From positions 4,242,001 to 4,306,000 of the forward strand of contig JBAIAC010000059.1 in assembly GCA_037349315.1 (NCBI GenBank): a DNA stretch of 64,000 bases, read 5' to 3'. Positions 3,888 through 4,667 of this stretch are shown here, piece after piece. Source of the DNA: Chelydra serpentina (taxonomy: Eukaryota > Chordata > Testudines > Chelydridae). Within the stretch, counting starts at the first letter, position 1, and every line of letters begins with the position of its first letter. The notes below the pieces were generated by a model, which was not told the DNA's origin, did no database searches, and saw only the letters and a program-made list of their open reading frames with translations. Both the position numbers and the translations under genes were made by a program.

Positions 3888-4667
3888 AACGCTAGGGCTT
3901 GGTGCTGCTAGTTTAACCCGGGGTTCCATTTCCTTAACTGGTCAGGTCAGCTCCCTTGCCGTCCTTCGCCTCTCTACCATTGCTACAATCTCATCGTAGG
4001 TGGAGGGTTCGTTCTGGCTTACCCATGCGCGAAGGTCTGGCGGTAGTCCCCTCATGTGTCGGTCGATGACCAGAACCTCTAGTATCTCTTCTGGACTCCG
4101 GGACTCAATTTGCAACCACTTTCGTGCAAGATGGATGAGGTCATACAATTGGGACCGCGGGGTTTTGTCTTCCTGGTACCTCCACTCATGATACTGCTGG
4201 GCCTGCACTGCGGTCGTTACCCCAGATCTGGCCAGGATCTCTGCTTTCAGCTGGGGGTAGTCTGCTGCAGCCTCTTCAGGCAGATCATAGTAGGCCTTCT
4301 GGGCCTCCCCACACAGGAATGGGGCGAGGATGCCAGACCACTGATCTCGAGGCCAGGCCTCCCATAGGGCTGTCCTCTCAAAGGCCAGGAGATATGCCTG
4401 TATGTCATCATTCCCCATCATTTTCTGCAGGCAATTGCTGGCCCGTATGTGCCATGTCCCATCATGGCCATGGTTCATCTCTGTAAGGGCCTTCACTTGG
4501 TTTACCAGTTCCCGCAACATAGTCCGGTCTTGAGCAGCCTGGTCCATCAACAGGCAATTGGTCTCCTGCTGCAGCCGCACTGCCTCCTGTTAGGCAGCTG
4601 CCTGGACACGGGTAGCCTCCTGCTGGACAGCCGTGGCTTGTATCAGTGCCCATACTACCTCTTCCAT
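3888..4667 (-). pseudogene. gypsy gag with SCAN-like C-terminal domain
   Basis: The likely start is the ATG at 4665-4667, the first in the frame after the primer-binding site and leader. About 25 codons later an in-frame TAA (4590-4592) interrupts it, and a TGA follows at 3942-3944. The central part contains a capsid-like helical region (AYLLAFERTALWEAWP, LPEEAAADYPQLKAEIL). Residues encoded by 3960-4193 resemble the SCAN domain: a HEWRYQ start, a PRSQLYDLIHLARKWLQ helix, then EEILEVLVIDRHMRGLPPDL, AWV and EIVAMVE. SCAN domains are dimerisation modules of vertebrate zinc-finger proteins and are thought to derive from the capsid C-terminal domain of Gmr1-like gypsy elements. Gag forms the particle; this copy is broken. 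Confidence 0.88.

Follow-up and report, generated by a model that had tools for sequence, protein, structure and literature searches.

The DNA analysed here, a stretch of 64,000 nucleotides from Chelydra serpentina (assembly GCA_037349315.1, contig JBAIAC010000059.1, positions 4,242,001 to 4,306,000; this whole stretch is called the window below), carries at its beginning a long terminal repeat (LTR) retrotransposon on the minus strand, apparently of the Gmr1-like Ty3/gypsy type. The Gag protein of this element contains a SCAN-type segment, which our analysis supports as the C-terminal domain of the capsid. The minus strand of 3960–4193 encodes YHEWRYQEDK...EIVAMVERRRT, while the plus-strand reading is interrupted by stops. 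Along the element, the following features were found:

4771–5384, minus strand: upstream LTR with the ends TGTGAC...GTCACA, set by motif; its part 5164–5384 forms a direct repeat with 1–221
3942–4580, minus strand: gag open stretch of 212 amino acids, an open reading frame (ORF); an in-frame ATG lies further upstream at 4667, past one in-frame stop
4221–4448, minus strand: putative capsid N-terminal domain of Gag, capsid-like by prediction
3960–4208, minus strand: SCAN domain, i.e. capsid C-terminal domain of Gag (Pfam PF02023; SCAN domains of the PDB by sequence, and predicted fold)
3684–3731, minus strand: CCHC zinc knuckle (nucleocapsid; PF00098, 23.2 bits, cut-off 20.8)
3336–3581, minus strand: aspartic protease (PF13975, 28.7 bits, and PF00077, 27.4 bits, both above the cut-off)
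2658–2789, minus strand: integrase zinc-binding domain (PF17921, E 3e-13)
2277–2564, minus strand: integrase core (PF00665, E 8.1e-11)
1737–1841, minus strand: integrase C-terminal domain (PF22938, E 4.1e-13)
921–1400, minus strand: reverse transcriptase (PF00078, E 2.1e-30)
342–653, minus strand: RNase H (PF17917, E 1e-36)
222–235, minus strand: purine-rich stretch ahead of the downstream LTR, seen in the sequence, which we take to be the probable polypurine tract
1–221, minus strand: downstream LTR, truncated at the edge of the window (0 of 221 positions differ from 5164–5384)

Read along the minus strand, the gag-pol domains follow each other in the order SCAN, CCHC, protease, integrase (three domains), reverse transcriptase and RNase H. 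The integrase (2789–1737) lies upstream of the reverse transcriptase (1400–921), an arrangement given as a Gmr1 trait in the available part of PMC2774666, and LTRs with TG...CA ends, as expected of a Gmr1-like Ty3/gypsy element, are present, the downstream one only partly within the window. According to the available text of a survey of frogs, SCAN is present in over 50% of the Gmr elements and absent from all other elements (PMC4131045). Neither a C2H2 finger nor a KRAB domain, as expected of a SCAN zinc-finger transcription factor, was found in the Pfam scan of the five ORFs of the element. A tblastn search with these ORFs detected no further copy of the element in the window; all that matched again were the final 42 residues of the reverse transcriptase ORF, which run into the LTR and hit the other LTR.

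That Gag contains a SCAN-like segment running from HEWRYQ to EIVAMVE had been suggested by an earlier, sequence-only reading, and this was borne out on the minus strand. PF02023 matched residues 125–207 of the 212-amino-acid ORF at profile positions 3–85 of 90 (E 8.9e-19, 67.5 bits, cut-off 27), and the translated segment, tested exactly as it had been delimited in that reading, gave a significant E-value of 6.9e-18 on its own. In a phmmer search of the PDB the matches were five solved SCAN domains, those of ZNF42/MZF1, ZNF24, PEG3, ZNF174 and ZSCAN10 (E 8.8e-11 to 8.8e-6); the remaining 9 of the 14 chains among the matches listed had E-values of at least 0.68, and nothing besides SCAN domains was found in the PDB by sequence at E < 0.6. 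A profile built solely from the five mammalian chains scored the segment with 60.1 bits, whereas the runner-up among 1232 six-frame segments of the window reached 10.2 bits and 2000 residue-shuffled versions of the ORF gave at most 10.4 (a score was obtained at all in 1462 of the 2000), which excludes a chance match.

The five-helix SCAN fold by which membership in PF02023 was judged was also found in the predicted structure of the segment, and the model of the isolated segment, predicted as a single chain, takes the shape of a swapped SCAN chain. The model of the whole Gag gave middling structural matches to the capsids of dArc1, Ty3, Rous sarcoma virus (RSV) and human immunodeficiency virus (HIV) in a comparison that covered the families listed by VIA-align, and nothing was found at E 0.001 in the viral structure library.

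The search with the ORF protein yielded 115 proteins at E ≤ 0.001 among 425 candidates, the candidates being proteins up to 1.75 times the length of the query; PF02023 was present in 107 of the 115 by the table count, a CCHC knuckle was recognised by motif in three and a C2H2 finger in none. The named source organisms were turtles, frogs and one paddlefish, with Natator depressus (88% identity over 99%), Gopherus flavomarginatus (83% over 100%) and Chelydra serpentina itself (94% over 70%) among them. Several turtle and frog Gag fragments are publicly labelled as zinc-finger or ZBED proteins (P0004, P0006, P0012, P0033, P0074, P0077 and P0093 in our list), and such zinc-finger labels could inflate counts of SCAN genes. 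A second protein search, aimed at mammalian SCAN zinc-finger proteins, gave 22 proteins, of which all named ones were from turtles, and the host SCAN domains used in our tree are therefore the five solved mammalian chains only. Two alignments were made, A1 from the window protein and 34 of the 115 homologues (35 rows) and A2 from the window protein and 35 of the 126 proteins of both searches; in A1 the two-part capsid layout is common to the turtle, frog and paddlefish proteins. Among the open-licence matches listed, no paper was titled for a Gmr1-like Gag in turtles; capsid ORFs of the painted turtle have been examined in PMC11011659, which in its available part states that no SCAN profiles were built.

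According to the available parts of three reviews (PMC4592553, PMC3406341, PMC3424704), SCAN descends from the C-terminal portion of a Gmr1-like capsid and the first SCAN domain had the extended form and arose at or near the root of the tetrapods; the derivation put forward in the sequence-only reading agrees with them. To relate the window copy to host domains, identities were calculated for 33 of the 35 A1 rows, with at least 75 residues each. The window copy is 62–87% identical to the other turtle rows, 42–58% to the frog rows, 40% to the paddlefish row, 44% to one further row and 33–37% to the five mammalian SCAN domains. An unrooted tree was calculated from 27 SCAN segments over 80 columns, consisting of the five mammalian chains and 22 of the 35 A1 rows, near-copies and short rows having been omitted by hand. 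In this tree all five mammalian domains fall together in a single clade (100/100). Branch lengths of 0.9 and 0.45 changes per site lie between this clade and the 22 Gag rows, among which the window copy takes a terminal position in a turtle sub-family. Good support was obtained for only 4 of the 24 inner branches; PEG3, ZSCAN10 and the paddlefish row have long branches, and the program issued a warning that long branches meet. A common ancestry of the window copy and the host SCAN domains is supported.

We regard it as highly probable, at about 0.92, that the segment forms the C-terminal domain of the Gag capsid in a Gmr1-like Ty3/gypsy LTR retrotransposon and serves the capsid role described below. 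Homology to SCAN, the CCHC knuckle, protease, integrase and reverse transcriptase downstream of it and the LTRs are all seen at the locus, and a capsid-like N-terminal domain is predicted upstream. Several points weigh against this view. The filing as a Gmr1-like Ty3/gypsy element, drawn from the SCAN-type gag and the domain order, is only a probable one, and the putative capsid N-terminal domain has no sequence match. The model of the whole Gag has a predicted template-modelling score (pTM) of only 0.50, and its SCAN part superposes on solved SCAN domains only at 6.1–6.9 Å; the swapped shape is seen in the model of the isolated single chain, while the whole-Gag model fits the swapped chain badly. 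On a separate question, how near the window copy is to the source of the host domains, three observations run counter to our reading that it is not close: the host branch attaches at an open fork among the turtle groups, a branch that sets the turtle rows apart from all others is present in only 28% of 200 bootstrap trees, and two turtle rows (P0024 and P0093) each share 42–43% identity with one host domain, where the frog rows reach at most 37%.

These three observations would fit the proposal that the element is close to the source, i.e. that the host SCAN domain arose directly from its Gag lineage, which has remained the most similar to it. They suggest that, taken together, the turtle elements may stand a little closer to the host SCAN domains than the frog elements do, which does not extend to the window copy in particular. 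Its identity to the five host domains is below that to any frog or paddlefish Gag (40–58%), the branch to the host clade is long and the copy itself sits at a tip, so that the closeness to the source claimed by the sequence-only reading was not upheld and the proposal appears improbable. A transfer in the reverse direction, by which an ancestral element acquired the segment from a host gene, must be considered since an unrooted tree cannot by itself give the direction. The segment, however, occupies the place of a capsid C-terminal domain behind a predicted capsid-like N-terminal domain, this two-part layout extends to frogs and the paddlefish, and the reviews cited above, in their available parts, give the direction as from element to host, all of which makes such an acquisition very improbable. 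Finally, close relatives bear names such as "zinc finger and SCAN domain-containing protein 12-like" (P0004) and "zinc finger protein 274, partial" (P0006, P0012), as they would if the segment came from an intact or decayed SCAN zinc-finger gene of the host. This explanation was rejected because retroelement domains and LTRs flank the segment, the lack of C2H2 fingers among the homologues within the length limit also speaks against it, and we leave it scarcely any probability.

With the segment read as a Gag capsid domain, its role may be pictured by analogy with established capsid biology. The SCAN-type domain would pair Gag molecules, as in other Gags, and this pairing would help to build the particle that houses reverse transcription of the RNA of the element. 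In the host, where SCAN domains pair transcription factors, the pairing part would have been retained and most of the remaining Gag lost; the window copy would be a modern relative of the ancient donor rather than the donor itself. The locus fits the published origin of SCAN, and the sequence-only reading rightly recognised known biology at a new place, with little that is new. As the isolated Gag segment is predicted in a swapped shape like that of host SCAN domains, it can be tested on present-day elements whether swapping preceded domestication.

The element had also been called young. The two LTRs show no differences over the 221 bases that can be compared, in line with this claim, yet these are only 221 of about 614 bases; the upper bound of LTR divergence is 1.35% at 95%, gene conversion being ignored. 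The five ORFs share one reading frame with no frameshift between the domains (93–4667, minus strand), and seven in-frame stops (six TGA and one TAA) lie in this gag-pol frame ahead of the terminal stop. Under a simple model of substitution in which a transition bias of 3 was assumed, about 1.25 nonsense changes would be expected after insertion at the 1.35% bound, and the probability of seven or more is 3e-4. Since seven stops far exceed this expectation from later decay, it is more likely that they came from an already defective parent mobilised by helper proteins, or arose through host editing during copying. As the stops interrupt its own gag-pol frame, the window copy probably makes no working protein set. 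Other turtles have longer gag relatives that are uninterrupted over the aligned stretch, and 22 homologues run on beyond the end point of the window gag ORF (by a loose motif). The window gag ORF and 4 of the 115 homologues (P0003, P0008, P0013 and P0017), the latter from different turtle sub-families, stop directly after a common short motif (3942–3950); this shared stop site could mark a place where nonsense changes recur or a stop that is regulated.

Among the 22 proteins of the second search are gene models in which a SCAN segment of Gag-like type is linked to Myb/SANT-like domains (P0119 from Chelydra and P0124 from Terrapene), and others join such a segment to C2H2 fingers (P0126 and P0127, Chelonoidis) or to SPRY (P0128, Mauremys). 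They raise the idea that turtle genomes still make SCAN genes and that the group of the window element has recently lent its segment to new host genes, which we consider unlikely. All five may equally be artefacts of gene prediction: P0119 and P0124 have different junctions, at least one third of the profile is missing from three of the five SCAN segments, and P0126 contains a piece of RNase H.

Two further open frames were observed on the plus strand of the window, neither with a Pfam match at E 0.01. The one at 56681–60616 is rich in serine and threonine and encodes 1311 residues; perhaps it belongs to a host gene as a large, mucin-like exon. The other, at 28763–29179, encodes 138 residues and presumably resembles the end of the reverse transcriptase of a CR1-type long interspersed nuclear element.

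When compared with known systems, the window Gag has the two-domain helical layout of the Ty3, Arc, RSV and HIV capsids in common, with middling matches of the whole model, but differs from them in sequence to the point that none of these is matched in the PDB at E < 0.6. The host SCAN domains of ZNF24, PEG3, ZNF174, MZF1 and ZSCAN10 belong to the same Pfam family and have the same predicted fold; they differ by sharing only 33–37% identity with the window domain, which is preceded by a predicted capsid N-terminal domain and followed by a CCHC knuckle and pol domains instead of C2H2 fingers. With the Gmr1-like Ty3/gypsy elements, as described in the available parts of PMC2774666 and PMC4131045, it shares the SCAN-type capsid in gag and the integrase upstream of the reverse transcriptase, and the window element is distinguished from these as a turtle copy that carries seven in-frame stops.
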